Of a stretch of 64,000 nt of DNA, positions 9,601 through 53,857 are shown piece after piece. The notes under the pieces were generated by a model. The model was not told where the DNA came from. It saw only the letters and a program-made list of their open reading frames with translations, and did no database searches. Positions within the stretch are counted from its first letter, which is position 1. Every line of letters begins with the position of its first letter. The stretch covers positions 2,061,501 to 2,125,500 of the forward strand of contig CP138355.1 of assembly GCA_033584155.1 (NCBI GenBank), in the 5' to 3' direction. This stretch comes from Candidatus Electrothrix scaldis (lineage in GTDB: Bacteria; Desulfobacterota; Desulfobulbia; Desulfobulbales; Desulfobulbaceae). Position numbers and translations under genes: made by a program.

Positions 9601-9777
9601 TCAGAGGAGTTCTTCGGCCTGACCCTGCCTGCGGAGGGTATTCTTCGCTGTGGTCAGTATGAAAAGAACCGGGAATGCATGTTCGCAGATTGTCCATTAT
9701 GGGAAGATCGGGAGTGGAAAGAGCGAGGTTGGATGGGAGGGCGGGTCAAAGGCGATACCCTACCCGTGATCTCTTAA
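6607..9777 (+). CDS. Radical SAM / ArsM-like methyltransferase / DUF5714 fusion
   Basis: A 1056-residue three-part protein. Residues ~95-390 are a radical SAM domain with C108-x3-C112-x2-C115 for the 4Fe-4S cluster and a YFTGGEP motif; the following SPASM-like region (LAVAPDGTLYPSP) has lost the usual cysteines. Residues ~490-720 form a class I methyltransferase of the arsenite-methyltransferase type: motif I is DLGSGSG, and the three arsenic-binding cysteines of ArsM have counterparts in YGCGSP (C526), SNCVINLSPDK (C618) and GECLGGA (C668). Residues ~800-1050 match DUF5714, opening with paired cysteines like a zinc ribbon (CIICGEE, CYFCG, CDRC) and containing a Gly/Cys-rich block (GACGFWGCCGAAVGAG). 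DUF5714 is known as a companion of such methyltransferases in anaerobes. I infer arsenic or another metalloid/thiol methylation with a radical step in one polypeptide; the product is unknown. It converges with the next gene, overlapping by 4 nt. Confidence 0.82.
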   Translation: MSMQWVTRLHRIEHAGIPVYIDQEKPEWFVPSTRTDDLLRSCQKHGNWFTVLSEFCERHQETPDQVCRDLGRLEQLLDRERPEPYQGRSHHLRLGALKEIWFHLTDACNLSCVHCLFSASPSRKESIDQKRLRDAIDQATALGSHLFYFTGGEPFVYPGFCKIIQYVLEQNPAHHVAILTNGLLLEKHLTELMALDHERIHLQVSLDGLEEEHDFLRGPQTYSRLCANLGSIAKEGLAFTISVAVNNDNVDKLEQIAIQAHALGAASLHLMYHFVRGKGTSGQFVPVVRLFSQIVKAARGCDKLGMKIDNLEAMKSQVFAVPGSRFDLTNMGWESLAVAPDGTLYPSPALIRVEELACGHLDHGLKTVWQNNLTLRKIRASSQRDIEQRKRRPLSLITGGGDPDHSWVSGQSLVGHDPYIDLYEQLALLLITDQAARYPDQGLFRLRMGDVRHDCPDTENGSDGSVSLAHCNCLISLADNDGHSSVREFYSAAAQQANREIVNPFHPATGLDNYIPEEAKEKSYGCGSPVKDAAPQKGETLVDLGSGSGVECFLAAAEVGANGKVYGIDMTDAMLELARKSQQHVMTDLGYDNIEFRKGYLEEIPLEEAIADVVISNCVINLSPDKRRTYLEIMRVLKPGGRLVVSDVVSDEQVSAAIKNSSKYRGECLGGAMQQDDLVAMLEDCGFASVYLHKRYPYREVDGNRFYSLTYEARKAALVAEEEDMVQCFFRGPEPALETASGRRLERGRMTELLRREAEQLGEQVFILDAEGAVTNIAQEPCCCGLPPGEAGQKESVSPEPLIRYLSGCIICGEELVYQSDSGSDAACYFCGAVTTTPCSCTAGHYVCDRCHQQGGLEIIHSVCLNSTEKDMIALMVRIRNHPSVPMHGPEHHAMVSGVILAAYRNNGGKISQDIISTGIDRGSNVPGGACGFWGCCGAAVGAGIAASLILEATPLKAGERQEALSFTARILAEIAGMKGGRCCQRDSWLALTHASRLSEEFFGLTLPAEGILRCGQYEKNRECMFADCPLWEDREWKERGWMGGRVKGDTLPVIS

Positions 9778-12254: not shown

Positions 12255-12461
12255 GATGTACCTCTCTATGGGATGTCACCACCTGTGGGTGAGGATAACA
12301 ACGGGAACGCTGAGGAGAGAATAAAACAAGTTAGAATGATTATCGCCACTCGCGTAATAATATGATACCGTTGTTCCATTTGCCCTACAAGCGTTATTTT
12401 GGGCAGATTTTGGAGCAGGATACCGGAGTTTCACCGTTACAATGATTGCAGGAGGAAAAGC

Positions 12462-15085: not shown

Positions 15086-15468
15086 ATAGCCCTTCGTACA
15101 TGGGGGCGAATGATGCACTTCCTGTGTTCGCCCGGAATTTTCCGAAATATCGAATCCGGCAATAAGTCCGGGATCCTCACCCCGAGCTTTCCTCTTTCCC
15201 ATCCGACCCCTTGAGACAGAAGGAAAAAAGCGTCACCAAGGGAACGCAGGACGAGAGATTCGCGTTGAAACGCCGGGAAGCGTTAAGCCCGTATTCCTAC
15301 AAAAACGAAATAAGCTGTGGAGTCCAAGGCCCATTCAGGGTACAATGCCCGATAATTTTTTTTTAAGGGGAGGGGAGATATGTTTACCGTATGCAGAAGG
15401 TGAGTGCAGCTGCGCTTTTCTTTCGTGTATACAACTACCTTTGAGTTTTTTCTTTGAAGTACATAATT

Positions 15469-36909: not shown

Positions 36910-37124
36910 GAAAAACGGCCAGCAACTGTTGAATAAATTCAATTCCTAACAGAAATCAGTAAAAACTCTGGGCACATCTTACTGCTATATTTCGACATTG
37001 TCTCATAAAAAGTTGCAGCAGTTCTTTGTGGATAAAGTCCTCGCAATTTCTTGAGAGTTTCTAGCTGAAGGCGTATTTATTGCTTAGAAGTAGGTTGATG
37101 TTACGTTCTTTGCTTGCCATGATT

Positions 37125-37970
37125 TTATAGCTTATTGATTTCGTCAAGAGAAAGCCCGGTGCATTTTTGGATAATTTCGGCCGAAATACCTTCTTTCTTC
37201 ATTGATCGTGCTGTTTCCAGTTTTCCTTTTTTCAAACCTTCACTGAATTTCGTTCGAAGCTCGCTGTCTCTTCTGCGCCGATGATCAATATAATTATTAT
37301 AGTCGATCCGGTCTTCTTCTTTCAGTTTAGTGTAGGCGAGAATTCTTCCGGCCTCTTGTAAACCCTGGGCGGTAAATTCCGGTTTAATCTCTTCATTTTT
37401 TAAGAAGTATATCCATTCGTCGAGCGTGTCTTTTGCGAGATCATCAAAGCGGTTTATTTTTATCAGGTAGTATTCCGGGAATACCTGCTGAACACTGTCT
37501 TTGTTGAGGTCATTTTTTTCATTTGCTCTGAGCTGCAAGACGTCGTTTTTATGGATACCTCTGAACGATGTGGAGCCATGATAGACATAATCTTCCCCTT
37601 CCCCTAAATCGAAATAGATCAGGTTAACAGAGATTACCTTATGCACCCGGAGATAATCATCGCCTTCATGAAGATGCTCTGTCACCACCCTTGATGTCCC
37701 CCAGAGGATGCGATGGAAGAAGGAGTAGTCGCGGTCGTACTGTACCTCAATGATGATAATTTCGTCTTTAGAGTTTCTTACCTTCAGGTCGAGCACATTT
37801 TGCTTATGTTGTTTGAAGTCTTTATTTGATTCAGACTCCAGGACTTCAAGGACCGTGATGTTTTCCTTGAGGAGTTCAGATAAGAAACCTGCGAGCACGC
37901 CAAAATTGGCTTTTGATCGCAGGAGTCGTTTTATTGCCCAATCAAAGGATACATATTGTCTCGTTTTCAT
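37125..37970 (-). CDS. Rpn/PD-(D/E)XK nuclease family protein, tandem copy A
   Basis: A 281-residue Rpn-family protein starting MKTRQYVSFDWAIKRLLRSK, with the catalytic signature VLDLKVRNSKDEIIIIEVQY (Asp, then E-x-Q). It begins two bases after the stop of copy B and repeats it almost exactly (about nine substitutions and a 4-residue indel near the C-terminus). The C-terminal EGISAEIIQKCTGLSLDEIN helix is conserved in both. Rpn proteins are linked to recombination and phage defence; a role here is not shown. Confidence 0.87.
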   Translation of the reverse strand: MKTRQYVSFDWAIKRLLRSKANFGVLAGFLSELLKENITVLEVLESESNKDFKQHKQNVLDLKVRNSKDEIIIIEVQYDRDYSFFHRILWGTSRVVTEHLHEGDDYLRVHKVISVNLIYFDLGEGEDYVYHGSTSFRGIHKNDVLQLRANEKNDLNKDSVQQVFPEYYLIKINRFDDLAKDTLDEWIYFLKNEEIKPEFTAQGLQEAGRILAYTKLKEEDRIDYNNYIDHRRRRDSELRTKFSEGLKKGKLETARSMKKEGISAEIIQKCTGLSLDEINKL

Positions 37971-37972
37971 AA

Positions 37973-38830
37973 CTATAGCTTATTGATTTCGTCAAGAGAA
38001 AGCCCGGTACATTTTTGGATGAGCTCGACAGAAATACCTTCCTTTTTCATTGATCGTGCAGTTTCCAGTTTTCCTTTTTCCACACCTTCCTCAAGGCCTT
38101 CACTGAATTTCGTTCGAAGCTCGCTGTCTCTTCTGCGCCGATGATCAATATAATTATTATAGTCGATCCGGTCTTCTTCTTTCAGTTTAGTGTAGGCGAG
38201 AATTCTTCCGGCCTCTTGCAGGCCCTGGGCGGTAAATTCCGGTTTAATCTCTTCATTTTTTAAGAAGTATATCCATTCGTCGAGCGTGTCTTTTGCGAGA
38301 TCATCAAAGCGGTTTATTTTTATCAGGTAGTATTCCGGGAATATCTCCTGCACACTGTTTTTGTCGAGGTCTTTTTTTTCATTTGCTCTGAGCTGCAAGA
38401 CGTCGTTTTTATGGATACCTCTGAACGATGTGGAGCCATGATAGATGTAATCTTCCCCTTCCCCTAAATCGAAATAAATGAGGTTAACAGAGATTACCTT
38501 ATGCACCCGGAGATAATCATCGCCTTCATGAAGATGCTCGGTGACCACCCTTGATGTCCCCCAGAGGATGCGATGGAAGAATGAGTAGTCGCGGTCATAC
38601 TGCACCTCAATGATGATAATTTCGTCTTTAGAGTTTCTTACCTTCAGGTCGAGCACATTTTGCTTATGTTGTTTGAAGTCTTTATTGGATTCAGACTCCA
38701 GGACTTCAAGGACCGTGATGTTTTCCTTGAGGAGCTCAGATAAGAAACCTGCCAGCACGCCGAAATTAGCTTTTGATCGCAGGAGTCGTTTTATTGCCCA
38801 ATCAAAGGATACGTATTGTCTCGTTTTCAT
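37973..38830 (-). CDS. Rpn/PD-(D/E)XK nuclease family protein, tandem copy B
   Basis: A 285-residue near-identical upstream twin of copy A, with the same start and ending. The differences cluster at residues ~145-175 (RANEKKDLDKNSVQEIFPEY) and in the EEGV insertion before KGKLETARS. Nucleotide identity is also very high, so the duplication is recent or maintained by gene conversion. Both read on the minus strand and probably share one transcript from the region above 38830. Confidence 0.87.
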   Translation of the reverse strand: MKTRQYVSFDWAIKRLLRSKANFGVLAGFLSELLKENITVLEVLESESNKDFKQHKQNVLDLKVRNSKDEIIIIEVQYDRDYSFFHRILWGTSRVVTEHLHEGDDYLRVHKVISVNLIYFDLGEGEDYIYHGSTSFRGIHKNDVLQLRANEKKDLDKNSVQEIFPEYYLIKINRFDDLAKDTLDEWIYFLKNEEIKPEFTAQGLQEAGRILAYTKLKEEDRIDYNNYIDHRRRRDSELRTKFSEGLEEGVEKGKLETARSMKKEGISVELIQKCTGLSLDEINKL

Positions 38831-39371
38831 AATGTTCTCTTGTCGTTGCTTTGCGAAGACGTTCTGGCGAGAAGAATGTGATATTTGCGTATGATAATGA
38901 GATGAAGCAGCTTGTGTCAGGTTATGATTTCGTTCACAGTATATTCAGATTCTCCAGGAAGTACAATAGTTGTGATGTAACAGGAGGATGGCGAGGGATT
39001 GTGCGGTTTTTTGGGTGGTGGGGTGTTGGTTAGGGACGATTGATCAAGATGGATGGAGGTGAGTCCTCATGTGGAAGAGGTATGGTCGCGATGGTTGTTG
39101 GGCGAAGATAACACCCTTAAAGATTAATTAACGTCCGGTTTTGAGCGAAGAAGGAGCTTTTTTTATTGTGCAACAAGAGTATTTCGTTGTTTTGGGAATC
39201 TGAATCATTATTAATGTGCTGATACTATGATGTTTTTTATTGACTCTTCTTGCGGGGCATGCTTTGTATATATTTTGCGTGGTAATAAGATGATGACCAT
39301 CTTGATGCACAGGCAATTTGTTCAACGATGGTAAAAAAATGGACATTCACCTTTTACATGTACGCCTCTAT
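38831..39371. other. Intergenic region upstream of the Rpn pair
   Basis: About 540 bp without a supported gene. It should hold the promoter of the Rpn pair (minus). GC content falls toward 39150-39370. No transfer RNA or insertion sequence end was seen. Confidence 0.5.
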
Positions 39372-39656
39372 CTTTTTAAAAGGAGGTGTTAGATTTTAAA
39401 AGGCGAGAGGGCATTTTTAAAAAGTCACGTCTCATTATTTAAGGTAGAGATCGCAACCTTTAAAAATAGGTGTTGGGGTTTAAAGTCTGAGAGGCCATTT
39501 TTAAAGAGTCGCGTCTCAATATTTAAAGTACAGGTCGCAACCTTAAAAAGTAGGTCCTCACCTTTTTAAGGTGGGGCATGGATTTTAAAAAGTGAGGTCT
39601 GCCTATATAAAGTTTGGCAGAGGATTTTAAAAGAGTATTGACCGCCTTTTAATCTG
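39372..39656. repeat. 21-bp periodic TTTAAA array, ~13 units
   Basis: Each unit carries TTTAAA, TTTTTAAAAAG or a one-base variant, and units repeat every 21 bases exactly; I followed the phase codon by codon from 39375 to 39656 without a slip. Conceptual plus-strand translation gives heptads such as LKGERAF, LKSHVSL, FKVEIAT, LKSERPF, LKSRVSI, FKVQVAT, LKSRSSP, LKSEVCL, but in-frame stops (for example at 39390) and no ribosome-binding site argue that it is not translated. It ends 30 bp before the coiled-coil gene at 39688. Confidence 0.8.
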
Positions 39657-39687
39657 AAGGCTACCCTGAAAAAAAAAGGAGACTCTT

Positions 39688-40044
39688 ATGGCAAGCAAAA
39701 GCGTACCCAAATTATTGCAGGAAGCAAATGAGATAAAAAAGGCCCTGGAGAAAATTGATGATCGTATTCCTGACGGGCTGAAGGCTGCGGATATGCAAAC
39801 AAAGGTGACCGAGCTGGAGGATGTGATTGATGACCTGGATGCCGTTAATGTCGAACGGACCAGGTTGGTTGATCGGAAAGGGGAGCGGGCAGAGGGTCTG
39901 AGTGATCATATCGTGCAGGTTCGGGCGGTGGTCAAGGGGATTTTCGGGGCTGATTCTGAGGAATACGATATGGTCGGTGGCACGCGGAAAAGTGAGCGGA
40001 AGCGTCAGGCGAGGAAGGCGGGGCAGGGGGAGGATGGCATGTGA
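39688..40044 (+). CDS. Small coiled-coil protein of unknown function
   Basis: A 118-residue protein. Residues ~5-75 are predicted helical and charged (LLQEANEIKKALEKIDDRIP, VTELEDVIDDLDAVNVERTR), followed by VVKGIFGADSEEYDMVGGTR and a basic tail (KSERKRQARKAGQ) that could bind nucleic acid. AAGGAG precedes the ATG by seven bases. I do not recognise the family by name; similar small proteins ending in GGTRxSERK occur in diverse bacteria. It lies directly after the 21-bp array, so the array may be part of its leader or an associated element. Confidence 0.7.
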   Translation: MASKSVPKLLQEANEIKKALEKIDDRIPDGLKAADMQTKVTELEDVIDDLDAVNVERTRLVDRKGERAEGLSDHIVQVRAVVKGIFGADSEEYDMVGGTRKSERKRQARKAGQGEDGM

Positions 40045-40215
40045 AGGGTTTTCGGATGCAGTCGAACTTCATGGTTGCTGCTCCGATTGCCGCCGGGGTA
40101 TATTTTTCAACTCCGGTTCTCTCTCATTTAAGCGATTGAGATGACTTTTGGTATTATACCAATTCTGTAAAATTTTGGCCTGTCTTTCCCTGTCTCTCTA
40201 AGTACTCAACCATAT

Positions 40216-40316
40216 ATAATCGACACTCCTGTTTGGCTCCCAAGCTGACCTGTCGGCATGTTACACCACAAGAAGTGTCGATTATTCAAGGTGACCTACT
40301 TATTCTCCTTGAATAA
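40216..40316. repeat. Two overlapping inverted repeats at the left edge of the AT-rich island
   Basis: ATAATCGACACT (40216-40227) is perfectly repeated in inverse orientation as AGTGTCGATTAT (40274-40285), with a 46-base loop. Sharing its last bases, TTATTCAAGG (40282-40291) pairs perfectly with CCTTGAATAA (40307-40316). The two structures are mutually exclusive at their overlap, as in an attenuator or element end. They lie in the 334-bp gap before the membrane-anchored gene; no coding signal is in this gap. Confidence 0.65.
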
Positions 40317-40378
40317 GGGAATGATGGGCCAACACATCATAGAAATAGTATAAAATGCTTCTGTTTATATAAAATAAA

Positions 40379-41122
40379 ATGTTTCCTAACTCGAATGACC
40401 CTTGGAGTGGGTGGATACCAACTTTCCTTGTTCCCTTGATAACAGGTATTTTTATCCTTTTATCTAAGATTCCTATAAAAACAGTAAGAAAAAAAATATT
40501 TATAATTATACATAAGGGAGCAAGACGAATTGTAAAATGTCTATCCTTTGAAAGGAGAGCAATTTCTTTACCAATAAATAGAAACCTTAAAAAAAGAGTA
40601 TTTATTTTCTGTGGGAAAGGGCCTTTTGATGAAAAGTTTAGATATTTTGAAAAAATTTATACTCAAAATATATATTGCGTTATTGATATTGACCTTTCAA
40701 GTATAGATACAAGATCTGATAAAGAATTATATTTTTATATAGTAAAGATAATAATATCTGTGATATCAGAAAGAGGAGGGTATGGTGAAAATAATTTAAT
40801 TAAGGAATTCGAGATAAAGTGGAATGAATTAAGAGATATGGAATTATGGAAAAAGAATCTTTCTATACTTATTATTGATTTTTTAAATATTTTTAGAGAA
40901 TATTATAGTAATAATAAAGGAAGTGAGAAAAGTTATGTTGTATGTATTCGTAACTTTGATCGCATTACTTGTGAAAATAATAAGTTTTTTTTGTTAAAAG
41001 ATATTATAAATCCTTTTTCAAGAAGAGGTATTATTTTTTTTATTGATAGTAAAAATGATTCAGATTCAAATTTTTTCTACCCTGGAGACAAAAATGTCCA
41101 TATTGAGAAGTATTGCCAGTAA
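40379..41122 (+). CDS. Membrane-anchored NTPase-like protein, unknown
   Basis: A 247-residue, very AT-rich gene. One hydrophobic segment near the N-terminus (PTFLVPLITGIFILLSK, ~residues 14-30) is followed by a basic stretch and a soluble part. SYVVCIRNFDRITCENNKFF resembles the Walker B / D-x-D-R strand of KAP-type P-loop NTPases, and RVFIFCGKGPFDEKF sits where a P-loop would be but has no intact G-x4-GKS/T. It may be a degenerate KAP-like anchor for its neighbours. The next gene starts 55 bases later in the same direction. Confidence 0.6.
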   Translation: MFPNSNDPWSGWIPTFLVPLITGIFILLSKIPIKTVRKKIFIIIHKGARRIVKCLSFERRAISLPINRNLKKRVFIFCGKGPFDEKFRYFEKIYTQNIYCVIDIDLSSIDTRSDKELYFYIVKIIISVISERGGYGENNLIKEFEIKWNELRDMELWKKNLSILIIDFLNIFREYYSNNKGSEKSYVVCIRNFDRITCENNKFFLLKDIINPFSRRGIIFFIDSKNDSDSNFFYPGDKNVHIEKYCQ

Positions 41123-41177
41123 AGTTCCACTCTAAATATCCCTATCTTGTTTAATTAATTATAATTGAGGTTTTGTA

Positions 41178-42707
41178 ATGGGAAAACATATTTTACATGA
41201 TGATTGGCTGTTTATTAACAGGGAAGAAGAAAGAAATATTTTAGAAGAGGTTCTTGGTAATGAAGAATATCATGATAGGATTTTTGAATTTACCGCTATA
41301 GCTGGGCAAGGGAAGACAGAACTCTTAAAATACTTGTGTGACGCAACAAGAGAACGAAGCAATTGCCTTGTTGCTTACGTTGATGTCTATGAGTCTACAC
41401 TTGGTCGTCCAGAAATCTCTCCTATTTTAAGTGATATAGCTGAATCTATTATTTCTGGTACTCAGAATAAAAAGGTGTTCGGTAAATTTGACGCATCAGT
41501 ACGCGACTACAACAAGTGTTTTTCCTCGTACCATGTAGAGTTCCTGAAGAATCCGAAAACTGCTAACCGACAAGCTGTTGAAGAGAAAGAGAGAAGCTTG
41601 ATTACCCATTTTAAGGCAGGGCTTAATAAGCTGTTATCTAAAGGCTATAAAATTGTACTTTGCTTTGATGCCACCGAGTTCAGCTGTTGTCGTGTCGCAA
41701 TGCAGCGATTCGAAGAGCAGGTTTTACAAGAATTAATCGTTGACAAAAATTTAATTGTTTTTTTTGCAGGTCAGCAAAGATGGCGTTGTGTAACACGAGA
41801 ATTGCGTCGTCAGATTACCCGCCAACCTTTACTGCCTTTTACTAGAAAATACAGCGAGCAGTTTATCGAAGATTTTTTGTCTCGAAAAAATGTTAGTGTT
41901 GAAAATAAAGTCCATCTTTTTTACAAAACATGGGATTTGACAAAAGGGCATCCATTCAGCACATACAAGATGTTGGACTCATTGACAGCAGGATTTGAAG
42001 ACAAGCATCTGTCAAAGAGAAAAGTTACAGCCTTGTACCCGAAAATTATTACGGAGCTGATTGAAAAAGTAATTAAAAACCGAGTACTATATAAGATGAA
42101 GTTAAACTCGGCGTATTACCCACCACCTGAAAAAATTCTCTTATATATCTCTCCATTACGGCGCATTGAGTTTTACCCTGTTAGTTTTATTTTGTCTCGT
42201 TTTCTTCCAGATTGGTTTAAAGACAAACCTGGTCAATTTGTTGAAGAGCTTATCGCTGACTTTCAAAAGCAGACACATGTTCTTGCAACTAAGTTGGAAT
42301 TTGGTGCCAGTTCTCACCTTGAGGAGGTGACACGCAATATCTTACTTTTTGAGTTGCAGATTAACAGAAACAAAGAACTTATTAAAATTCTGAATGCATT
42401 GATTAAAGAATATGACGTATGGATTAAACAGACCGAAGGTGACTCGCAGATAAAATATATCATTGACAGACTCTATTATAAAGTTCGTTTGATGAGGGTA
42501 GAAGACAAAGAGAATATTGTTTCAATAATTGCTGATGAACTGCATATAGATTTAGATCGTTATTTCGTCACGAATCACTCTGGATCTGAGCATCGGATTG
42601 ATTGTCAATTTGAAAGGTTAAAAGAAGAATTAAGCTGTGACGAAGAGTTGAAATGTATAATTGATATTGAGAAATTAATCAGTATCCTGAATCAGAAACG
42701 CAATTGA
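41178..42707 (+). CDS. STAND-type P-loop NTPase, small partner
   Basis: A 509-residue protein. The opening LHDDWLFINREEERNILEEV is a typical STAND lead-in, followed by the P-loop FTAIAGQGKTELLKYL (residues ~38-53; the first G of the consensus is Ala) and Walker B KIVLCFDATEFSCC, with LIVFFAGQQRWR as a sensor-like strand. The C-terminal half is helical (winged-helix-like) and ends without a recognised repeat domain. STAND NTPases are signal-responsive switches, and many are phage-sensing defence proteins. The following gene starts 27 bases downstream. Codon use is AT-rich and unlike the housekeeping flanks. Confidence 0.78.
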   Translation: MGKHILHDDWLFINREEERNILEEVLGNEEYHDRIFEFTAIAGQGKTELLKYLCDATRERSNCLVAYVDVYESTLGRPEISPILSDIAESIISGTQNKKVFGKFDASVRDYNKCFSSYHVEFLKNPKTANRQAVEEKERSLITHFKAGLNKLLSKGYKIVLCFDATEFSCCRVAMQRFEEQVLQELIVDKNLIVFFAGQQRWRCVTRELRRQITRQPLLPFTRKYSEQFIEDFLSRKNVSVENKVHLFYKTWDLTKGHPFSTYKMLDSLTAGFEDKHLSKRKVTALYPKIITELIEKVIKNRVLYKMKLNSAYYPPPEKILLYISPLRRIEFYPVSFILSRFLPDWFKDKPGQFVEELIADFQKQTHVLATKLEFGASSHLEEVTRNILLFELQINRNKELIKILNALIKEYDVWIKQTEGDSQIKYIIDRLYYKVRLMRVEDKENIVSIIADELHIDLDRYFVTNHSGSEHRIDCQFERLKEELSCDEELKCIIDIEKLISILNQKRN

Positions 42708-42734
42708 TTGAAGATTAAATCAAGGAGCAAATAC

Positions 42735-45700
42735 ATGTCCTTTTACGAATTATATAAAAACTACACCCGACTCCAAGAAAAGGAAGACACGTTTAGTTCG
42801 GAGTTGCAAAAATTACAACGATACATGCGTTCATGTGAGGAAGCACAGAAGAAATATGACCTGCAGATGCGTGTTCTTGAGATTGAAAATGAATTAAAGA
42901 ATATCTTTGAGCAGAAATGCGTTTGCTTAGATGAGATTGAAAAACTACCTAAAAAATATTTAAACGTTTATCGTGCTAGTGACAGTCATAAGCTTACTAG
43001 AGAGTTACAGGATAGTATCCTGGACAACCTGTATGAGATATTTGGATTAAATAGAAATGCGGACGGATTTGAGAACATTATTTCTATTCAAGCAGTTTCG
43101 CCTCACTTGACGCTTTCGATTCCAGAAGATTTGGCGAAGAAACTTGAGGAATTATTTTGCAGTGAAGAAGATAGCATACAACGGTTTAGTAAAAAATTTA
43201 ATATTAGCCGAGTTGAACAGAAAGATAGTAAGAATAAAGCGTTACTCGTTGAGGTTACGGGTGATAACTGTACAGTGCCGCTTCAAGAACAGTTATCCGT
43301 AAAATCATCTATTTTTGTTGGGCGACAAAAGGAACTCGATCAATTTAAGGATCATTTTCTTTTTACTCCTGAAAACTTTGTGTTGAATATCCATACAAAT
43401 GGAGATGGAGGTGTAGGGAAAACACAGCTTCTTCTACAAATGCAAAAAAAGTGTCGGATTGAGCTTTCTGACAAGGTTGTAGTCGGTAATGAACTGATTG
43501 ATTTTTATCATACCGAGAGCAGGTCTAAAATAGGTATTGCCCAACAAATCATAAAGTATATTGGTGAAGAAAGATTTCCGAAACTTATTAAACAGATTCA
43601 TGATTATAATCAGACTGAGGATAGCAGTGAACGTAACTATTGCATACATCAATTATTATATACATTAAAAACGGAATATGAGAAGTTTGCCGCTGAAATG
43701 AACAGAGATGGGCAAACCATTGTATTCTTTTTTGATACATATGAAGTGATTCAATTTGTTGACGGAAGGAAGGGGAGCAGCGAAGGGACAGAGTTTTCCA
43801 AGTGGCTAGAAAACGTTTTTTTTCCTGTTTTGGCAACAAACAATACTCGGGTAGTTATTGCTGGGCGTAATCGTCTCATTTGTACCAATAACCTTACGAA
43901 GGTAGCAGAGTGTGTACTCTCATTGTTTGATTTTTCAACAGCGATCGCTTTTTTAATTAAATCTCTAAGGATTGCTGAATTTTCCGCTATTGACTATCAG
44001 AATTTTTCAGAACGATTTTCTAAGGAAGCAGACCTGCTGAATCCATATCGCCATACTTTAGGAAATGAACGTATTGGCATCTGGATTTCTGAACTCCCCG
44101 ATGATTACATAGTAAAGTTTGGAGAGGAAGCCTGGTTGCTATTGATGAACAGAGTAGCGATTGAAGATAAAGATGAACTTGATAAAGATGGATTACTTGA
44201 CGAACTGGGACTAACTGAAGATGAACTTCATACTATTTTTGACCTAGCGAACTACCGCCCTATTTTCTTATCACTTTTTGTAGAATGGTTTCGTTTTAAT
44301 CGTGGCAAGATTGAACCTGCTGAACTGATAGAAGAAATTAGTCAGTATTCAGAAGATAAAAATATTCAGCGGAAGATGTTCGACAGAGTACTTGTTAAAC
44401 GTATCAGTTATGATTATCAGGAGAGGATAATTATCTATCGGATGACTGTTGCCTACCGCCGAATGAATCCAGAGATTATGGCATACTTGACCGGATATAC
44501 ACTGGAGAGATGCCGGGATATACTTCTGGAGAGAATGAGGCATTTATCGTTTATTAAATACAAGAAAGAAGGAGATGTTGTACTTCTTCATGATGAAGTT
44601 CGTGATCTGATAGAACAATATTGGGATGATCCCGGAAAGGTTCATTATAAAGAAATTTCAAGAAAGTTAGTGCATTATTATGAGGAAGTGCTTTTAAATG
44701 ACAAGGAACATTCAATAAAAAAGACAGTGATTTTTCCAGAAGACAGGAATACTTATATTGCTGAATTTATAGAATACAGTTTTATTTCTGACTACTCTAC
44801 TGGATTGGATCATTTTTGTGAAGAATTCGACACGGCAATGGAAGATGCTCGGTATTCTTATGCGGATTTACTGTTACGTGAGGCTGAGTTTTGCTGTAAA
44901 AAATATTCATTATCTGATGGCAGAGAAATAATTGATCTTAAGCGTGCAGAATATTTAATTGATAGTAATGAAAGTAATTTCGATAGAGCTTTAAATTTAA
45001 TAGAAAAGGTCAGAAAGAAGAAGGAGACAGATAAATTATGGAATTCTTCAGTAGTAAATGGAAAATTTGTGATGTTGGAGGGGATTGCTACTTTCTGGTT
45101 AGAAAAATATAATGATGCAATTAAGTTGTTTAAGAAAGCTAAGGGAATTTTTATTTTACATGAAGAGCAAGATGTTGCATTGTCTCGTGTTGATAACTGG
45201 ATCGGTTACGCTTACTACCGGCAAGCAAACTTTAATGAGGCTGAAAGATTGATGAAGCAAAGTCTAACTGGACTGTTAGATTTTTCGCCTATGAAACAAA
45301 ATATAAGCGAGAGAATGAAAAGGAATATACTGCAACTTATTCAGTATATTTACGGTAATATGGCGATGATATACCGATATACCGGTAACTTCTCTGAAGC
45401 AATACGTAATGCTTACATCCAGTATAATATTGTGAGTAGCTTGCCATATAATACAAAAGAAACTCTCAGGTCATTAAATACTCTTGCCCATGTTCTATCA
45501 GTTTCAGGTCGTACGATTGACGCTCGTTTTTATTTGGAACGCGCACTAAAGATTTATAATGAAAGACCAGATAGTTTGCTTGGTGGTCGTTTGTATAATA
45601 ATTTCAGTTTATTGTCTTACGATTCTATAGAGTCAGCATATATGATTGAATTTTATCGGGCTATAGAATTGAACAACGCTCTTGAAGTTGCTTATGGTGA

Positions 45701-47696
45701 GCAAGAAGGAAAGCGAGCCGAGACGCAAGCCGAGAAACTTGATAACGCATTCAAACATGTTCACAAATCTATCGCGATTCTTAGTAAAGAGAAGAAGTTT
45801 CATAAGGAGCTGGCAGACGCATATTTGAGCTTAGGTGGATTGTACATGATACAACCGGAGTCTCGTGATCCTGAGAAATGGGAGAAAGCCGAGGAACAAT
45901 TGTTGCAAGCGGTCAAGTTTGGAAAAACAAGTCAGTTTAAATATAGCCATATTGATTCCCTGGTGACTCTGCTTACGCTTTATTATTTTTGGGGTTATTC
46001 TGCGACGAATCTGTCAATTGTTGAAAAAGAGAAGATTGAGAAGAAGCGGGAAAGAGCCCAGAAAGAACTGACAAAAATGGGTAGAGAAATAGAGTGTTAT
46101 CCAGATTTGTTGGGGCGTTATAGGTTGACGTTAGGTGATATAACTTTCGATAATTCTGTAAAAATGATGGAGGAGGGGAATAGCAGCCATACTTTAATCG
46201 AAAAACAACTTAGAGAAGCATCTAGACATTATTTTTATTCCGCATTAAGCGAAAAAACTTTTAATCGAGATCGTTATCATAAGGTGCTGAGAGTTATTTA
46301 TAATCGTTTAAGAACATTAATAAAAGAGGATAAGCTGATTTCTCAGAACGTTATCAAATGGATAGAGAATAATTCAAAAAAATGGGAGAATTCGTTAAAT
46401 GAGCTTAGTGATGTTTTTCCCTATGTTATTACTTTACTGTTGAATGAAAAAGTAGAGATAGAAGTTTTACACGATAAAATAAAACAACTCGAAGGTGCAA
46501 TCAATCGCTTCGAGGAACAGGGTGAATATAGGAGTTTTGTTCTACTTAACAAATGTTTACTTGATGTATATAGAAAGGAGGCGGAAAACAACAGGAGTGA
46601 AGAATACCAAGAGAAGCTCGTCATTAATTTAAACCGGCAGGGCCGTCTGTATCGTCTTTTGGGAGAAGTTCATTATACGCGTCTTTGCTTTGAGCGAGCC
46701 CGTAAAGCAATTATAGGTGAGGATATTGAAGCGAGAGTGCCAATCACAGATCCTGTAGTGGAACAAGGGTTGCAGGGGTGTACGGATATCGTTGAGGGCG
46801 AATTTTGTTTCAGGCGAGGCAACTACGGTTCCTTATTAGAATTCTTCCTGCAAGGGGAGCTCGCTAGCGCTAGGGATAAATTTGATGAGCAGTTTCCAGG
46901 TTCAAGAAAGAAGGCGTATAAGTGTCTTCATAGAGGAATAGAACAACTTGATCAAGCTGTAATGGTTTTAAAGCAGCAGCAAGTAAAAACGCCAGCTAAC
47001 ACGCTCCTGAATGAAAGAATAGGGACATATAGTCAGCAACTGTATGAGGCCTATTTTCAACTAGGTGAGTTGTTGATGATGGATGAAAAATTTATACTTG
47101 AGGATGGGCGAGGCGCATTTTATTATTTAGAAAAAGCCATTGAAGGATGGAGCTCCTTTAACAATCATTCTCGACTCGATGATGCTTGGCAAAGCTACTT
47201 AAATGCAATTTATTTCTCCGGTAACTATTATGATCAGGACTACAGGTGCATAGTGGAACTATACGAAAGAAAACTTAATGATAGAATAGAACAGAAGGAT
47301 TATCTATATCCTCGGGTTGCAGCTAAGTACTTGATTGCATGTGGAGATGTGCTGTTTAGTGAATTGTTTCAGATACAAAAAGAATTAAACTCATTGCTTT
47401 CCGAGGAGTATCAGTTTGTGCCTCGGAGAAAGGTAACAAGAGAAGATCTTCTGGAAATTTTCCGTAATTATGTTGAAGCATGTGATTTTAAGGCTTGTTT
47501 TAACAAAATAAGTTTTGATACAGGGCTTAAAGTCCTTCGGCGCCGCATAGAATTAATCTCCGATAGTGCGTCATTAGATGTTCTTGATGGAATTCTAAAG
47601 CATCTCTGGAGGGAAAGAGAGCATCTTAGAGATAAAGATGACGAACTTAAAAGTATTCTTCAGGTTATTAGAATTGGGAAAATGGTGTCCATGTAA
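42735..47696 (+). CDS. Giant STAND NTPase with TPR-like C-terminal repeats
   Basis: A 1653-residue protein. Residues ~1-60 form a coiled coil (QEKEDTFSSELQKLQRYMRS). Residues ~190-600 hold a STAND NTPase: SIFVGRQKELDQF, Walker A NGDGGVGKTQLLLQM (~222-236), Walker B TIVFFFDTYEVIQ, sensor-like TRVVIAGRNRL. From about residue 730 to the end there are helical repeats with TPR features (YADLLLREAEFCCKKY, AIKLFKKAKGIFI, YADAYLSLGGLYMI-like, YRLLGEVHYTRLCFERARKA). No toxic effector domain was recognised at either end. The start is the ATG behind AAGGAG rather than a TTG nine codons earlier. It forms an operon with the two genes upstream. Confidence 0.85.
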   Translation: MSFYELYKNYTRLQEKEDTFSSELQKLQRYMRSCEEAQKKYDLQMRVLEIENELKNIFEQKCVCLDEIEKLPKKYLNVYRASDSHKLTRELQDSILDNLYEIFGLNRNADGFENIISIQAVSPHLTLSIPEDLAKKLEELFCSEEDSIQRFSKKFNISRVEQKDSKNKALLVEVTGDNCTVPLQEQLSVKSSIFVGRQKELDQFKDHFLFTPENFVLNIHTNGDGGVGKTQLLLQMQKKCRIELSDKVVVGNELIDFYHTESRSKIGIAQQIIKYIGEERFPKLIKQIHDYNQTEDSSERNYCIHQLLYTLKTEYEKFAAEMNRDGQTIVFFFDTYEVIQFVDGRKGSSEGTEFSKWLENVFFPVLATNNTRVVIAGRNRLICTNNLTKVAECVLSLFDFSTAIAFLIKSLRIAEFSAIDYQNFSERFSKEADLLNPYRHTLGNERIGIWISELPDDYIVKFGEEAWLLLMNRVAIEDKDELDKDGLLDELGLTEDELHTIFDLANYRPIFLSLFVEWFRFNRGKIEPAELIEEISQYSEDKNIQRKMFDRVLVKRISYDYQERIIIYRMTVAYRRMNPEIMAYLTGYTLERCRDILLERMRHLSFIKYKKEGDVVLLHDEVRDLIEQYWDDPGKVHYKEISRKLVHYYEEVLLNDKEHSIKKTVIFPEDRNTYIAEFIEYSFISDYSTGLDHFCEEFDTAMEDARYSYADLLLREAEFCCKKYSLSDGREIIDLKRAEYLIDSNESNFDRALNLIEKVRKKKETDKLWNSSVVNGKFVMLEGIATFWLEKYNDAIKLFKKAKGIFILHEEQDVALSRVDNWIGYAYYRQANFNEAERLMKQSLTGLLDFSPMKQNISERMKRNILQLIQYIYGNMAMIYRYTGNFSEAIRNAYIQYNIVSSLPYNTKETLRSLNTLAHVLSVSGRTIDARFYLERALKIYNERPDSLLGGRLYNNFSLLSYDSIESAYMIEFYRAIELNNALEVAYGEQEGKRAETQAEKLDNAFKHVHKSIAILSKEKKFHKELADAYLSLGGLYMIQPESRDPEKWEKAEEQLLQAVKFGKTSQFKYSHIDSLVTLLTLYYFWGYSATNLSIVEKEKIEKKRERAQKELTKMGREIECYPDLLGRYRLTLGDITFDNSVKMMEEGNSSHTLIEKQLREASRHYFYSALSEKTFNRDRYHKVLRVIYNRLRTLIKEDKLISQNVIKWIENNSKKWENSLNELSDVFPYVITLLLNEKVEIEVLHDKIKQLEGAINRFEEQGEYRSFVLLNKCLLDVYRKEAENNRSEEYQEKLVINLNRQGRLYRLLGEVHYTRLCFERARKAIIGEDIEARVPITDPVVEQGLQGCTDIVEGEFCFRRGNYGSLLEFFLQGELASARDKFDEQFPGSRKKAYKCLHRGIEQLDQAVMVLKQQQVKTPANTLLNERIGTYSQQLYEAYFQLGELLMMDEKFILEDGRGAFYYLEKAIEGWSSFNNHSRLDDAWQSYLNAIYFSGNYYDQDYRCIVELYERKLNDRIEQKDYLYPRVAAKYLIACGDVLFSELFQIQKELNSLLSEEYQFVPRRKVTREDLLEIFRNYVEACDFKACFNKISFDTGLKVLRRRIELISDSASLDVLDGILKHLWREREHLRDKDDELKSILQVIRIGKMVSM

Positions 47697-47899
47697 GGTC
47701 GAAAGAGTAAAAACAAACTTGTGCTTCGTAAAATCTAAAAATTAGGGTTAATCATCTCAGTTGTTGTTTAATCTTTCGATTTGGCCTGAAGGCGGCAACC
47801 CTAAAATTTAGTCATGACTTAGCACTAGTAGCGTAGGCTTTTGAAAGAGAAACAAAAAATATTTTTGTTTCGTCTTCATGTTCCTGGAGAGAAAGTCAC
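47697..47899. other. Right-hand gap of the AT-rich island, with an inverted repeat
   Basis: About 200 bp without a gene. CTAAAAATTAGGGTT (47735-47749) pairs with AACCCTAAAATTTAG (47797-47811) with two mismatches, a 15-base stem around a 47-base loop, much like the left-edge structure in scale. It could be the operon terminator (no long T-run) or an element end. The promoter of the peptide gene should lie in the remaining 80 bp. Confidence 0.55.
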
Positions 47900-48055
47900 A
47901 TGAGAGAAGTAAAAAACAAGAGCTACTTGCAGGCCTATTATAGTTCGGATCAGACTGCTTCCAGCCCTGTACGTGTTATCCTGAACAAAGTTGAGCGGCC
48001 AGTTCTGAAGGAACAGCAAAAAAGAAAGGGCTTATATGCCCTCGGCAGCCACTAA
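47900..48055 (+). CDS. 51-residue peptide, candidate RiPP precursor
   Basis: Encodes MREVKNKSYLQAYYSSDQTA followed by SSPVRVILNKVERPVLKEQQ and KRKGLYALGSH. A good Shine-Dalgarno (GGAGAG) lies nine bases upstream, and the stop is three bases before the radical SAM start. The peptide has several tyrosines, an N-terminal YLQAYY cluster and a basic C-terminal half, no cysteine and no signal peptide. Position and coupling to a radical SAM enzyme with a PqqD-like domain make a modified-peptide precursor likely; the core residues are unknown. Confidence 0.6.
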   Translation: MREVKNKSYLQAYYSSDQTASSPVRVILNKVERPVLKEQQKRKGLYALGSH

Positions 48056-48058
48056 CCC

Positions 48059-49276
48059 ATGCTCTTCCCTTCAGCCCCTCTCTCCTACGCCATAGAAATC
48101 ACCTATGCCTGCAATAACTCCTGCACCGGCTGCGCCAATGTCTGGGGAACCCGCCGCCAGCAGACCCTGACTAATTGGCGAAACCTCTTTGATCGCATTG
48201 CCCCGCCAGGTCATCCTGACAAATATGCCGAACTGATCCGCCTCACAGGCGGTGAACCCACCCTCCATCCTGAATTGACCCAAATCGTTGAATACGTTGA
48301 TTCTCTAAGTATTGCCCATGTCCTGTTTACCAACGGACGTTGGTCTGATCCTGCCGCTATTATCGACCTGTATCAAGACCAGAAAAACTGCCTGGGTATG
48401 CTTGTCAGTCTGCACGGGAGCACCCCTGTAGCCCATAATACCTTGGTAGGAGATACCAACGCCTTTGGACAAACCTGCGACAATATCCAGCGAGCCGCTG
48501 ATGCCGGGATAGAGGTCTTTACCAATACCATCCTGACTAAAGACAGCTGCGAACAGGTGGAAAGTATCATCCACCTTTCCCAGGAACTTGGTGCGGAATA
48601 CGCAGTGTTCAATCGTTTTTTGGGAGGAGATAACCCGCATCAACCTGGCAAAGAGCAGCTTCGGCAAGCTGTCTTGTTGATTGAAAACCTGCACAGACAG
48701 GGCGTATCCTGCCGAATCGGCAACTGTGTCCCCAAATGTTTTGCTCCCAACTCCACCGAAGGCTCCAATGCAGGCATTGAACATTGTGCAATTTCACCGG
48801 AAGGTCTTGTCCGCCCGGATAATCTCACCAGCACCGTGTTCGGAAATATTTTTGAACAACCTCTCACAGAGATTTGGCAATCGGAACAGGCGCAACTGTA
48901 CCGACAGCAGATTGCTCCGGCCTGTTTAGAATGTGTTGAGCTCTCCCGTTGCCGAGGAGGCGACCGCTCTGCCACCCTGGAGCAGGGTGAACAACAAGAT
49001 CCCCTGATGACAGGCCCCATTCAGGAGGCAGAACAGAAACCCATCCATCTGGACCCGAGCTGGAAGCCGCTTGCCCGCTTTCGCATCAGGGAGGAACCCT
49101 TCGGATACCTGGTAACCCGCTATAATTGGTCAGTTCCGGTATCGTCTGAAGCAAAACCTGTTCTGGATGCAGTGAATGGAGAGTATACCCTGGCAGAAAT
49201 TCACGAACGTTTCGGAGATGAGGCCCTGGAGCTGATCGGGCGCTTGTACCAGGAAGATTGTTTGGGCTTTGAATAA
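48059..49276 (+). CDS. Radical SAM/SPASM protein with C-terminal PqqD-like domain
   Basis: A 405-residue protein. The radical SAM cluster motif is C18-x3-C22-x2-C25 (YACNNSCTGCAN), with the LIRLTGGEPTLHPEL strand. A SPASM-type cysteine-rich region follows (GNCVPKC, EHCAISPEG, ACLECVELSRC). The last ~65 residues, from about FRIREEPFGYLVTRYNW, through NGEYTLAEIHERFGDEALEL, are PqqD-like, the recognition element (RRE) that binds leader peptides in RiPP pathways. Coupling to the upstream 51-residue ORF suggests that peptide is the substrate. The nearest characterised relatives (PqqE, other peptide-modifying SPASM enzymes) form C-C, C-S or C-O crosslinks; the reaction here is unknown. Confidence 0.85.
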   Translation: MLFPSAPLSYAIEITYACNNSCTGCANVWGTRRQQTLTNWRNLFDRIAPPGHPDKYAELIRLTGGEPTLHPELTQIVEYVDSLSIAHVLFTNGRWSDPAAIIDLYQDQKNCLGMLVSLHGSTPVAHNTLVGDTNAFGQTCDNIQRAADAGIEVFTNTILTKDSCEQVESIIHLSQELGAEYAVFNRFLGGDNPHQPGKEQLRQAVLLIENLHRQGVSCRIGNCVPKCFAPNSTEGSNAGIEHCAISPEGLVRPDNLTSTVFGNIFEQPLTEIWQSEQAQLYRQQIAPACLECVELSRCRGGDRSATLEQGEQQDPLMTGPIQEAEQKPIHLDPSWKPLARFRIREEPFGYLVTRYNWSVPVSSEAKPVLDAVNGEYTLAEIHERFGDEALELIGRLYQEDCLGFE

Positions 49277-49330
49277 AAGGTAAGGGCAGGACTGCTGGTC
49301 ACGGCCTACGTCCTGTTGTTTGCAGTAAGG

Positions 49331-52300
49331 TTACTCCTTCCCCATCACCTGCCTGAAAATAATCTCCCGCAACTTCTCCTCATCAATGGGTTTGGAGAGA
49401 TAGTCATTCATCCCGGCAGCAAGACAATCAGCACGATCCTTTGCCGTGGCATTGGCTGTCAGGGCGATGATCGGGAGGTTAATTCCTTCGGCCCGCAGAA
49501 TTCGTGTCGCCTCCAGTCCGTCCATAATCGGCATCTGGATATCCATGAGGACAAAATCATACTCGCCCTCGTAGATCGCATTAATCGCCTCTTTCCCGTT
49601 ATAGGCGGACTTAACCGATATTGCCATTTTTTCCAAAAGGATATGGGCGAGTTTCTGGTTGAACAGATTGTCTTCAACAAGGAGACCTTTGAGCCCGGCA
49701 AGTTGAGGGGGCTGAGCCGCGTCCTTTTCTTCCTGCAATCTGGCTGCATGCTCCTGTTCTTCTAAAGCAACTTTGTCAAAGCTGATGGTACAGAGAAAGA
49801 TTGCACCCTTGCCGGGAGTACTTTTTACCTCAATGGTCCCCCCCATCATGTGGATAATGGAGGAGGTGATGGCCAGACCGAGCCCGGTTCCTCCGAATTT
49901 TCGGGTGGTGGAGGGGTCGATCTGGGAAAAGGGTTGAAAGAGCTCCTGGATTCGATCAAGGGGGATGCCGATCCCGGAATCCTGGACAGAGAAGAGAAGG
50001 GTGACCTGCTGCTTTGTTTCCTTTTCCAGAGATGCCTGAATGGTGATTTTCCCTTGCTCGGTAAATTTAATCGCATTATTGACCAGATTCATTATGACCT
50101 GATAGAAGCGGGTGGGGTCACCTTTCACGGACAGGGGAATATCATCGGCAATATTGCAGACCAGGAGCAGACCTTTATTTTCCGCCTCGACCCGTAGCAT
50201 GTCTGCTGTTTTGTGGATCAGCTCTCCGGGATGAAAAAGAATAGATTCCAGTTCAACTTTGCCTGCCTCGATTTTTGAGAAATCCAGGATATCTTCAATA
50301 AGGGCAAAGAGTATCTGGGAGGAACGATACACTATCTCAACATATTCCCGTTGTCTTGGGGTTAACTCTGTTTCCCGGATCAATTTATTCATACCGATGA
50401 TCACATTCATCGGTGTCCGGATTTCATGGCTCATATTTGCCAGGAAGAGTGTCTTGGCCCGGCTGGCCTGTTCAGCGACTTCCTTGGCGCTCCGAAGAGC
50501 CAGAGCTGTTTGTTTCCGCTCTGTAATATCCTGAACAATACCCACTGAGCAGAGAATATTTCCAGAAGCGTCCCGCTGGTGATGACATTTTTCATGGACA
50601 AAGCGAACCTCCTTGTCCAGTGGGCGGATGATGCGATGCTCTATTTCATAGTGCTCCGTATTCTGCTGAACTGAATCGGAGTAGGCTTGATGCACGAGGG
50701 CACGATCTTCTGGATGCACCAGTTCGAGAAAGGTCTCATAGTTGCCCTGAAAGTTTTGGGGTTCCAGACCGAAAATATGATAGGTTTCTTCGGACCATTC
50801 CAGCTGATTAGCCGAGGTGTTAAAAACCCAGCTGCCCAACTGGCCAATACTTTGCGACATAGTGAGCAGGTCTGTTTTCTCATCAAGGGCTTTCTTGGCC
50901 TGTTGTAAGGCAGTGATGTCGACAAAGTTGATAATGCCTTTATCCACCTGACCATTTTCATCAGGGACCGGGATCCCGTTCAGATAGATCCAGGTGATGT
51001 TGGGATGATGAGGCCGTTTGATTCCCAGCAGTTCATTGGAAACAGTCTCATGATTGCCCAGGACACGTGCAAGCGGGCAGGCTTCTTCCGAGAGGATTTT
51101 GCCCTCAGCATCGGTAAAGTACCAGTTGATATCACCACTGTTTTGTCTGTGTGCTTGAGGGGCAGGCAGACCTAAAATCCGGCGGGCTTCAGGATTACTG
51201 AAGATGATTTCAGCATTACGGTCATGCACCACCACGCCACTGAGCAAGTTGTCAAAGGTGACCTTATAATCGGTAGCATGTTTTTGCATTGCCAGTTCAG
51301 CCAATTTGATATCGGAAATATCAGTAAAGGTCAGGATAACGCCTTTGATCCTGCGGTCCTTGCCGCGATAGGGAACCATCCGTTGCAGGAGCCAGGCCCC
51401 ATCCTGACTTTGGACCTCATGCTCCATCATATGGCCGCTCTCCAGCACTTGGCGCACATCATTGAGCATTCGGTTTTGATCTGTCAGCTGATAAGCAATG
51501 TGATCAATGGGCCGTCCGATATCCTGGGGCAGCAGTTTAAAGGAATAGGCGCTGGCCGGGTTGAATTTGCGGATCACCAGGTGCTTATCGAGAAAGACAA
51601 CACCTACCTCCAGGCTGTCCAGCAGGTTCTGATGTTCTCTGTTGAGAGATTCGAGTTCGCTATTTTTTCTCTCGAATTCTGCGTTGACAGTGTAGAGTTC
51701 CTCATTAACGGAATGCAGTTCTTCATTGGTGCTTTGCAGCTCTTCATTTGATGCCAATAACTCCTCGTTAGTTGCCTGGAGTTCTTCATTGCTGGTCTGG
51801 AGCTCTTCCACCGTGGTTTGCAGGTTTTCTTTGGTCAGCTGAAGTTCTGCTTCCAGATCGGCAAGATAATTTTGCAGGGTATGGCTCCCCTGATCATCCT
51901 GAAGAAAGACGAATGGCTCCGGGGAGGAGGCTGGGGGAGAGGGAGACAGAGGGAGAGGAATCAAGGCAATATGATAATGGCAGGAATGGCTTTTATCATC
52001 GGGCAGGCACTGAACCACTACATCTACCCGTTCGGTCTGGTCACCACGCAGGACACTGACATTGGGCAGGGTAAAATCAGAAGCGCTGGCAGCGGAACGC
52101 TGCAAGGCTACGCTGACAGCCAGATGCAGATCACCTTCGAGCATGTGAAGGAAATCATTTTCCACCCGTCCCTCGGGCGCTTTGAGGTAGGGGGTGATAT
52201 CACCAAAATAATGTAATACCTGACGATGCTGGTCCAGGAGGACTCCGCGCGGGATATGGCGTTTGAGCAGCAGATCGTAATCATGGAGAACCTGCCGATC

Positions 52301-53857
52301 AAGCATGACCGAGTTCTTTGTTCTTATTTTTGGGCTGGCAGGGAGCAGGGGAGGGGGGCCGTTATTGCCGATCTCCCTGATGTCCAGTCCTCGCCGTGAA
52401 TCGCTGATCTTTTGAAATATTTTGTGTTTACTATGGATAACAGAAAAATCATCGGCAAATTTGCCGGTCCCTTCACTGAGTCCGAGCAGCAGTATACCGC
52501 CTCGATGGAGCGCATAATGGAGTAAATGAAGAGAGCTCTCCTGGCTTTCTGGAGAGAAGTAAATCAGTAGATTGCGGCAGCTGACCAGATCCATTTTGGT
52601 GAAGGGGGGATCATTGATCAGATTATGAGGAGCAAAAATCACCAGTTTACGCAGCTCAGGGTTAACGCTGTGGAATCCAGTCTTTTCTTCGTTGAAATAG
52701 CGAGAGAGTCGTTCTGGGGAAACGTTTTTGAGACGCTCACGCTCATAGACTCCTTTAGAGGCTATATCCAGGGAGTGGCGGTGTACATCAGTGGCAAATA
52801 CGGAAATTTTTTTTTCGGAGCCGATTTTTTCGGCAGCTTCATGGAGGAGAATGGCTATGGAGTAGGCCTCTTCACCGGTAGCGCAGGCTGCAATCCATGC
52901 TCTCAAACCATTAGGTCCTGCCTGCTTTAAAAGGCCTGGCACAACCTCATGCTCTAAATAGGAGAACACCTTGGGATCTCGGAAAAATTCCGTTACTCCG
53001 ATGAGAAGATCCTTGTACAGCGCATCCAGCTCCAGAGGGTTATTACTCAGGAGTTCTGCATAGTCTTGTATCTGTCGGAGGCGACAGAAGTCCATGCGTC
53101 GTTGGATACGGCGTCCCACAGTGGTGGGTTTGTATTTGGAAAAATCCAGGCCATAGCCTTGGCGGAGATGGGCAAAAACCTCAGCATATTCCCCCTCAGT
53201 CCAAAAAATTTCCAGACGCGATGAAGGTCTCCGTATGGATTCAGGGGCTTCTGCATAATCAAGCAGGAGACCCGGCATTTCAGCGGGCGTGATAACGTAA
53301 TCGCAGATACCGGTGCTGATAGCCTCTCTGGGCATGCCGTCAAATTGGGCGGATTCAACGGTCTGGGCCAGGACAAGCCCACCTGCATCGTGAATGGCCT
53401 GGATCCCTCTGGAACCATCAGAACCAGTGCCTGACAGGATGATGCCCACCGCTTGTGGACCTGCTGCCTTGGCCAGGGATTCAAAAAAAATGTCCACCGG
53501 CAGGGTCAAGTGCTGATTCACTCGTTCCTGGAGATAGAGTTGTCCCTCATTCATGGTCATGACGCATCTGGGCGGGATGAGGTAGATGGCATTTTTTTCC
53601 AGGGTAATGCCATCTTCCACCCGGTGGATGGGCATAGTGGTATGACGAGCCAGCAGCTTGTCCATCAGACTCTTGAAATCAGGGGAAAGATGCTGGACCA
53701 CGACAAAGGCCATACCCGTGTCTGGCGGCATGGCACTGAAAAAGGCCTCCAGAGCGGCTAGGCCACCAGCTGAGGCACCGATGCCTACTACCGGGAAGTC
53801 CGGGACGCCTTTTTTTTCCTGTTGCGGAGTATTTTCTGTATGTTGTTGGCTTGTCAT
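49331..53857 (-). CDS. CheB-CheR-PAS-histidine kinase-receiver hybrid
   Basis: A 1508-residue sensory protein. CheB methylesterase ([32 protein letters not shown]) is followed by CheR methyltransferase ([50 protein letters not shown]). Then comes a striking coiled coil of near-repeats of N-E-E-L ([20 protein letters not shown] onward, about ten repeats), three PAS-like domains, a histidine kinase ([20 protein letters not shown] with phosphoacceptor His; [22 protein letters not shown]) and a C-terminal receiver ([26 protein letters not shown]). This layout is a known class of sensory hybrid kinases. The start is the ATG before [12 protein letters not shown]; a TTG 24 codons upstream is open but lacks support. 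Confidence 0.9.

Follow-up and report, generated by a model that had tools for sequence, protein, structure and literature searches.

The locus described here raises the question of what a 51-residue peptide, encoded directly ahead of a radical SAM enzyme, does in a cable bacterium. It lies in a window of 64,000 nucleotides, by which we mean the whole stretch of DNA analyzed, from the genome of Candidatus Electrothrix scaldis (5.09 Mb in a single contig). A preliminary description had taken the peptide and the enzyme for a minimal RiPP locus. The two genes do not stand alone, however; they close a conserved cassette of STAND ATPases (40379–49276) at its 3' end, and we consider it probable that the whole is an NLR-like STAND ATPase conflict cassette, serving in defense or in self/non-self discrimination, that carries its own RiPP. 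The precursor peptide and its RRE-fused radical SAM maturase are well supported; the crosslink chemistry and the role of the peptide we infer.

The precursor peptide and its gene

The peptide gene (47900–48055, forward strand) encodes the 51-residue sequence MREVKNKSYLQAYYSSDQTASSPVRVILNKVERPVLKEQQKRKGLYALGSH, is preceded by the Shine–Dalgarno sequence GGAGAG, and ends in a TAA codon three bases before the ATG of the gene for the 405-residue enzyme, just as first described. An ORF this short that has no match in Pfam or NCBIfam could be a chance reading frame beside an enzyme that acts on another substrate, but its fixed position, its recurrence, and the duplicate copies of the gene argue otherwise. 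When homologous ORFs were sought beside relatives of the enzyme, as the preliminary description had proposed, the peptide gene was found next to 11 of them (in Electrothrix, Desulfobacterales, and one Cloacimonetes bin), with a conserved C-terminal core. The Electrothrix peptides have dN/dS values of 0.14–0.40, which indicates purifying selection. Furthermore, a profile trained on ten non-Electrothrix peptides, with every Electrothrix sequence held out, placed the seven Electrothrix peptide ORFs at ranks 1–7 of 2,312 ORFs; the window peptide ranked sixth (E 0.028) and was the top-ranked ORF within the window. In held-out tests of other loci, the peptides of L042, L030, L031, L043, and L032 each ranked first in their own locus, and the C-terminal motif arises in a fraction of only 7e-5 of shuffles. 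The selection signal and the recovery by the held-out profile refute the chance reading, to which we assign next to no probability; the 51-residue ORF is a genuine gene under selection. The candidate peptide of L036 ranked only fifth when held out, a weak result that leads us to treat it as doubtful, and no peptide was found at L037, L034, L035, or L038; the results for L036 and L037 count against our main reading.

All peptides of the family share a layout in which a leader motif of the approximate form [YFL]LxxFY is followed by a strand of the [VI][KR][VI] type and then by a basic linker. In the window, the peptide alignment places the leader motif at YLQAYY (47924–47941, forward strand) and the strand at VRVIL (47969–47983, forward strand), a candidate RRE-binding beta-strand. 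Leader peptides bind to RRE domains in the form of a beta-strand (PMC7470986; PMC11002830), which makes VRVIL the most probable contact, with LxxFY second. Alignment and shuffles mark YALGSH (48035–48052, forward strand) as the C-terminal core, in which the aromatic is F, Y, or H in Electrothrix; the consensus for that genus is [FYH]ALGS[HN]. The tyrosines of YLQAYY, to which attention had been drawn earlier, thus belong to a conserved leader motif and not to the core.

The core sequence differs between genera. Four Electrothrix genomes (L039, L040, L041, and L010) have two peptide genes ahead of the enzyme, the products of which terminate in NIFALGSH and GL[YH]ALGSN. Elsewhere the C-termini are FALSSS(G) in L042, FALSSGC in L030, FTLGSH in L043, and VYGSCN in L031, and L032 and L033 have two peptides each, one ending in FNSCN at both loci and the other in FSSQCGG or NGQCAG. 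A core aromatic (F, Y, or H) is present in the C-terminus at 11 of the 11 profile-supported loci, and is missing from the doubtful L036. The window peptide contains no cysteine, a point made in the preliminary description and borne out by the sequence, and its assignment as a sactipeptide or ranthipeptide was rejected on this ground. The peptides of L030, L031, L032, and L033 do have a C-terminal Cys, and given this residue thioether chemistry may occur in these relatives. A spliceotide, formed by excision of Xaa-Tyr-Gly, was also rejected: the window peptide has no YG motif, and Y-G occurs in L031 only.

The radical SAM maturase

Pfam, NCBIfam, alignment, and solved relatives were used to characterize the adjacent enzyme (48059–49276, forward strand), a radical SAM/SPASM peptide maturase. 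Pfam matches Radical_SAM at 4e-14 and SPASM at 1e-7 in the window enzyme and finds both domains in 14 of 14 scanned members of the family. The cluster motif CNNSCTGC (CxxxCxxC; 48110–48133, forward strand) is missing only from a paralog in the same genome, L038, and the SPASM domain (48776–48934, forward strand) is matched over residues 240–292, with a further Cys at 298. These matches, together with the motif, confirm the original assignment of the enzyme.

The C-terminus had been called PqqD-like, that is, an RRE. Sequence search by Pfam did not bear this out, with PqqD (PF05402) matched in 0 of 14 homologs, whereas the predicted fold did. The tail (residues 315–405, 91 residues) was modeled alone in AlphaFold2 with a pLDDT of 82.5; the full-length model was poor (pLDDT 50) and was set aside, and only the tail model was used. 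Its topology is one of strands followed by three helices, and it resembles the PbtF RRE (Z 9.2) and PqqD (5SXY; Z 7.5). The top Foldseek rows were TruD, the PbtF RRE, another heterocyclase, and PqqD, and the best structural matches are mostly RREs (TruD, PbtF, PqqD, ThcOx, lasso B1, MccB, and CteB). Thus, the PqqD-like call stands by structure, and in this model the C-terminus (49067–49273, forward strand, as placed by alignment and fold) is an RRE, a PqqD-like winged helix. The nearest solved relatives of the whole enzyme are the peptide modifiers PqqE, SkfB, SuiB, and CteB, which, with the conserved precursor and the RRE fold, substantiate the peptide-modifying layout that had been proposed.

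Homologs that lack parts of the system bear on the same point. In L034 the RRE and the peptide are both absent, which favors the RiPP reading; L035 also lacks the RRE tail and the peptide, and its locus starts at a contig edge. The paralog L038 (C1:1494544–1495701) belongs to a second STAND A-B cassette from which the peptide gene has been lost. Its enzyme lacks approximately the first 29 codons, including CxxxCxxC, and both ATPase genes are still open; the maturation half of this cassette looks dead.

No NCBIfam model reaches its cut-off on the window enzyme, and membership in FxsB was rejected, as the window locus is absent from the matches to the FxsB model up to E 0.01; the earlier statement that no named family fits holds for the enzyme. 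The RRE and the generic resemblance of the enzyme to the MftC and PqqE profiles could indicate a cofactor-type RiPP, akin to PQQ or mycofactocin, that serves a dehydrogenase. The scores are, however, far under the cut-offs (72 versus 265 and 71 versus 381 bits), and membership in the PQQ and mycofactocin families was rejected accordingly. Furthermore, the core varies across genera, a locus frequently encodes two peptides, and no dehydrogenase accompanies the system, so that we regard a cofactor as very improbable. The biosynthesis of a nickel cofactor or of conductive fibers, specific to cable bacteria, was also entertained; this idea was dropped because the family occurs outside the genus as well and travels with STAND genes. 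Elsewhere in the window, positions 6607–9777 encode a 1056-residue protein that combines radical SAM, methyltransferase, and DUF5714 domains. In genome G260, the FxsB model finds radical SAM-like matches at two places in a 1237-residue open frame (contig C230:937–3675).

The STAND ATPase cassette

Upstream of the peptide gene, on the same strand, lie genes for a putative membrane effector or adaptor (P0003; 40379–41122, 247 residues, 25.8% GC), which has one N-terminal TM segment and occupies a variable effector slot; for STAND-type ATPase A (P0004; 41178–42707, 509 residues, P-loop GQGKTELL); and for STAND ATPase B with TPR repeats (P0005; 42708–47696, 1662 residues, P-loop GDGGVGKTQLL), in which Pfam matches TPR_12 at 5e-16. 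Homologs of A and B keep this order in other loci, and in the 11 genomes searched all homologs of B (E ≤ 1e-15) and all homologs of A (E ≤ 1e-5) are in radical SAM cassettes. The order of ATPase B, precursor with leader and conserved C-terminus, and RRE-tailed radical SAM/SPASM enzyme likewise recurs in other genera, several sediment bacteria among its hosts. At L039, in the sister species G060, A and B are fused into a protein of 2103 residues with NB-ARC (residues 132–334; 2.1e-8), AAA_16 (residues 604–745), and then TPRs; NB-ARC is just under the cut-off in the ATPase A homolog of L042 (1.4e-4), and the AAA_16 match in B proteins is below threshold.

The gene upstream of the ATPases encodes a caspase in L042 (3.9e-7) and a TIR protein in L031 (4.5e-21). 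The L039 counterpart was read by eye as a trypsin-like protease, on the strength of H, D, and GxSG motifs, and the window, L036, and L038 have small membrane proteins in this place. This combination of ATPases A and B, TPRs, and varying caspase, TIR, trypsin-like, or membrane genes is the composition of a STAND conflict system. No Pfam effector domain was found in P0003. A weak similarity to the C-terminal part of the L042 caspase protein (E 0.001 in a 6-sequence set) is no more than a lead toward a common adaptor domain, as the hhalign comparison was not significant. Counting against our main reading, PADLOC identified no defense model at the window, where it gave only weak generic viperin and AbiLii profile matches, and the cassette contains no leader peptidase. 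In Desulfobacterales (L032, L033, and L042), a separate peptide gene comes after every copy of ATPase B, and one radical SAM gene ends the array. A 4-nt overlap between B and peptide genes occurs twice in L042 and also in L030. The presence of one peptide per ATPase B points to a partnership of peptide and sensor and not to an independent natural product.

Comparison of the window with L039 shows that the left flank (35916–39205) is 96.8% identical, the right flank (49154–52331) 94.4%, and the peptide–radical SAM segment 91.4%. The intervening segment (39206–47920) has nearly no DNA match in the sister species, with only two short islands, and other STAND genes are found there instead. The STAND and effector genes have a GC content of 26–37%, whereas that of the enzyme gene is 52.5% and that of the window as a whole 48.8%. 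From this swapped segment inside conserved flanks and from its low GC content we infer that the sensor cassettes are imported and exchangeable and are served by a resident maturase. Just upstream of the cassette, a gene for a PD-(D/E)XK nuclease-family transposase is present in two nearly identical copies in tandem (37125–37970 and 37973–38830, minus strand), which L039 shares. Between the transposases and the cassette, near the left swap edge, lie AT-rich imperfect "TTTAAAAAG..." repeats (39340–39660).

It could be argued that the STAND-TPR proteins are regulators of the AfsR or HaaT kind, or accessory proteins of RiPP biosynthesis, rather than immune switches, given weak family matches to AfsR and to NCBIfam HaaT ("cyclophane-containing RiPP biosynthesis TPR protein"). 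These matches are far under the cut-offs (18–44 bits versus 1125 and 1430), the proteins have no visible DNA-binding domain, and the caspase, TIR, and trypsin-like neighbors together with the allelic cassette swaps are better suited to conflict systems. We therefore consider a regulatory or accessory role decidedly unlikely.

The distribution of the system is patchy. Of 74 genomes from the family, 7 encode a homologous enzyme, and these belong to a single genus; further homologs occur in a Cloacimonetes bin, one Desulfobacterales genome, and five more genomes from that order. In a phylum sample, 1 of 395 genomes was positive; this sample is thin, and rarity is accordingly known only roughly. 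No relatives were found in a plasmid collection (tblastn) or in viral contigs.

Known systems and the role of the peptide

Actinobacterial conflict systems combine FxSxx peptides, a SPASM radical SAM enzyme, a metallopeptidase, and AP-ATPase-TPR proteins with TIR (Kaur et al. 2020; PMC7159879). Compared with the FxSxx-COOH models (FxsA/FxsB; NCBIfam NF040586, TIGR04269), the present cassettes are similar in having a short precursor with a conserved C-terminal motif, a radical SAM/SPASM enzyme, STAND (AP-ATPase)-TPR proteins, and a conflict context that includes TIR, and the Desulfobacterales peptides L032a and L033a end in F-N-S-C-N, a literal fit to FxSxx-COOH. They differ in that the window precursor ends in YALGSH, the maturase is not FxsB (TIGR04269; none over cut-off) and has a C-terminal RRE, the ATPases are a pair of A and B, arrays have one peptide per B, and the hosts belong to other phyla. 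Among the neighbor genes that were scanned, which are part of the total, STAND-TPR genes were present and no zincin metallopeptidase or vWA/MoxR/VMAP genes were found. ATPase B matches the FxSxx_TPR and HaaT families far under cut-off; the best match to HaaT is that of the L031 ATPase B (6.8e-12, but 44 bits versus a cut-off of 1125). The HaaA/HaaB/HaaT system (NCBIfam NF041717) likewise pairs a cyclophane-type radical SAM RiPP, a chemistry that our peptide may share, with a STAND-TPR partner, but HaaB joins His to Ala in His-Ala-Ala (PMC11002830), a motif that is absent here. Triceptides, or 3-CyFE (XncB, OscB, and MscB), share the SPASM radical SAM enzyme, the short precursor, and an aromatic-x-x core near the C-terminus; our system differs in having no family match above cut-off and, in Electrothrix, Leu at i+2. 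Antiviral STAND proteins (Avs/bNACHT) also have a STAND NTPase with a C-terminal repeat sensor and immune-type effectors, whereas here there is no PADLOC match, the effectors are separate genes, and the RiPP module is integral. The best reading is that the system resembles the actinobacterial FxSxx/HaaA systems without belonging to them. Among the open-licence papers listed in searches on RiPPs, STAND proteins, cyclophanes, and cable bacteria, we found no description of this locus.

Known crosslinks run from Phe to the i+2 Ser with MscB and from His to Ala with HaaB, and YxdB uses Tyr (PMC11002830). Two features suggest a crosslink of the MscB/HaaB kind: F, Y, and H replace one another at the conserved aromatic of Electrothrix, and peptides from Desulfobacterales end in F-N-S-C-N. 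By analogy with FxsB/MscB-type enzymes and HaaB, the enzyme might join the conserved aromatic (F, Y, or H) to a side chain in its vicinity, the one at i+2 being the best candidate, and so form a small cyclophane, a proposal that we advance with rather less than even confidence. Two observations count against it: the i+2 residue is not constant (L, S, or N), and the core aromatic of Electrothrix is at position -6, versus -5 in FxSxx. From family knowledge, the RRE would grip the leader through the VRVIL strand, LxxFY, or both, and offer the C-terminus to the SAM cluster.

Radical SAM/SPASM RiPPs are frequently antimicrobials or signals, and the mature peptide might thus be a toxic effector, a secreted bacteriocin, or a signal, with STAND genes that regulate or amplify its production. 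A "peptide toxin or signal" has been suggested for FxSxx peptides (Kaur et al. 2020; PMC7159879), and the difference of the core from genus to genus also fits such a role. We nevertheless consider it unlikely, given that the loci show neither a transporter, a peptidase, or an immunity gene nor a leader of the signal or double-glycine type, that three arrays encode a separate peptide for every STAND B, and that dedicated caspase and TIR effectors are already in place. In our estimation it is rather likely that the modified peptide remains intracellular and works together with the STAND pair encoded next to it, as a ligand that holds the switch off or else as an activating signal. An invader would then disturb the peptide, the STAND proteins would oligomerize, and the upstream effector, for which the caspase, TIR, trypsin-like protease, or membrane protein are candidates, would fire. 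More tentatively still than the crosslink, we propose that an NLR-like sensor pair uses a dedicated radical SAM-crosslinked peptide as a built-in ligand or guarded decoy whose modification state is monitored, with one peptide per sensor and one maturase for exchangeable cassettes. If true, peptide-coupled STAND immunity, known from actinobacteria, would also exist in Desulfobacterota, the multicellular cable bacteria among them. With a single maturase fused to an RRE, a peptide for every sensor, and swappable cassettes, the architecture allows a direct test of what the modified peptide does, and the naturally diverse cores of the family come with RiPP maturases that are still unexplored.

FGE-sulfatase, or C-type-lectin-like, domains are of a kind used as variable sensors in conflict systems and as targets of diversity-generating retroelements. 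Within the window, two proteins end in such a domain, one of 722 residues (12399–14567) and one of 700 residues (15454–17556).
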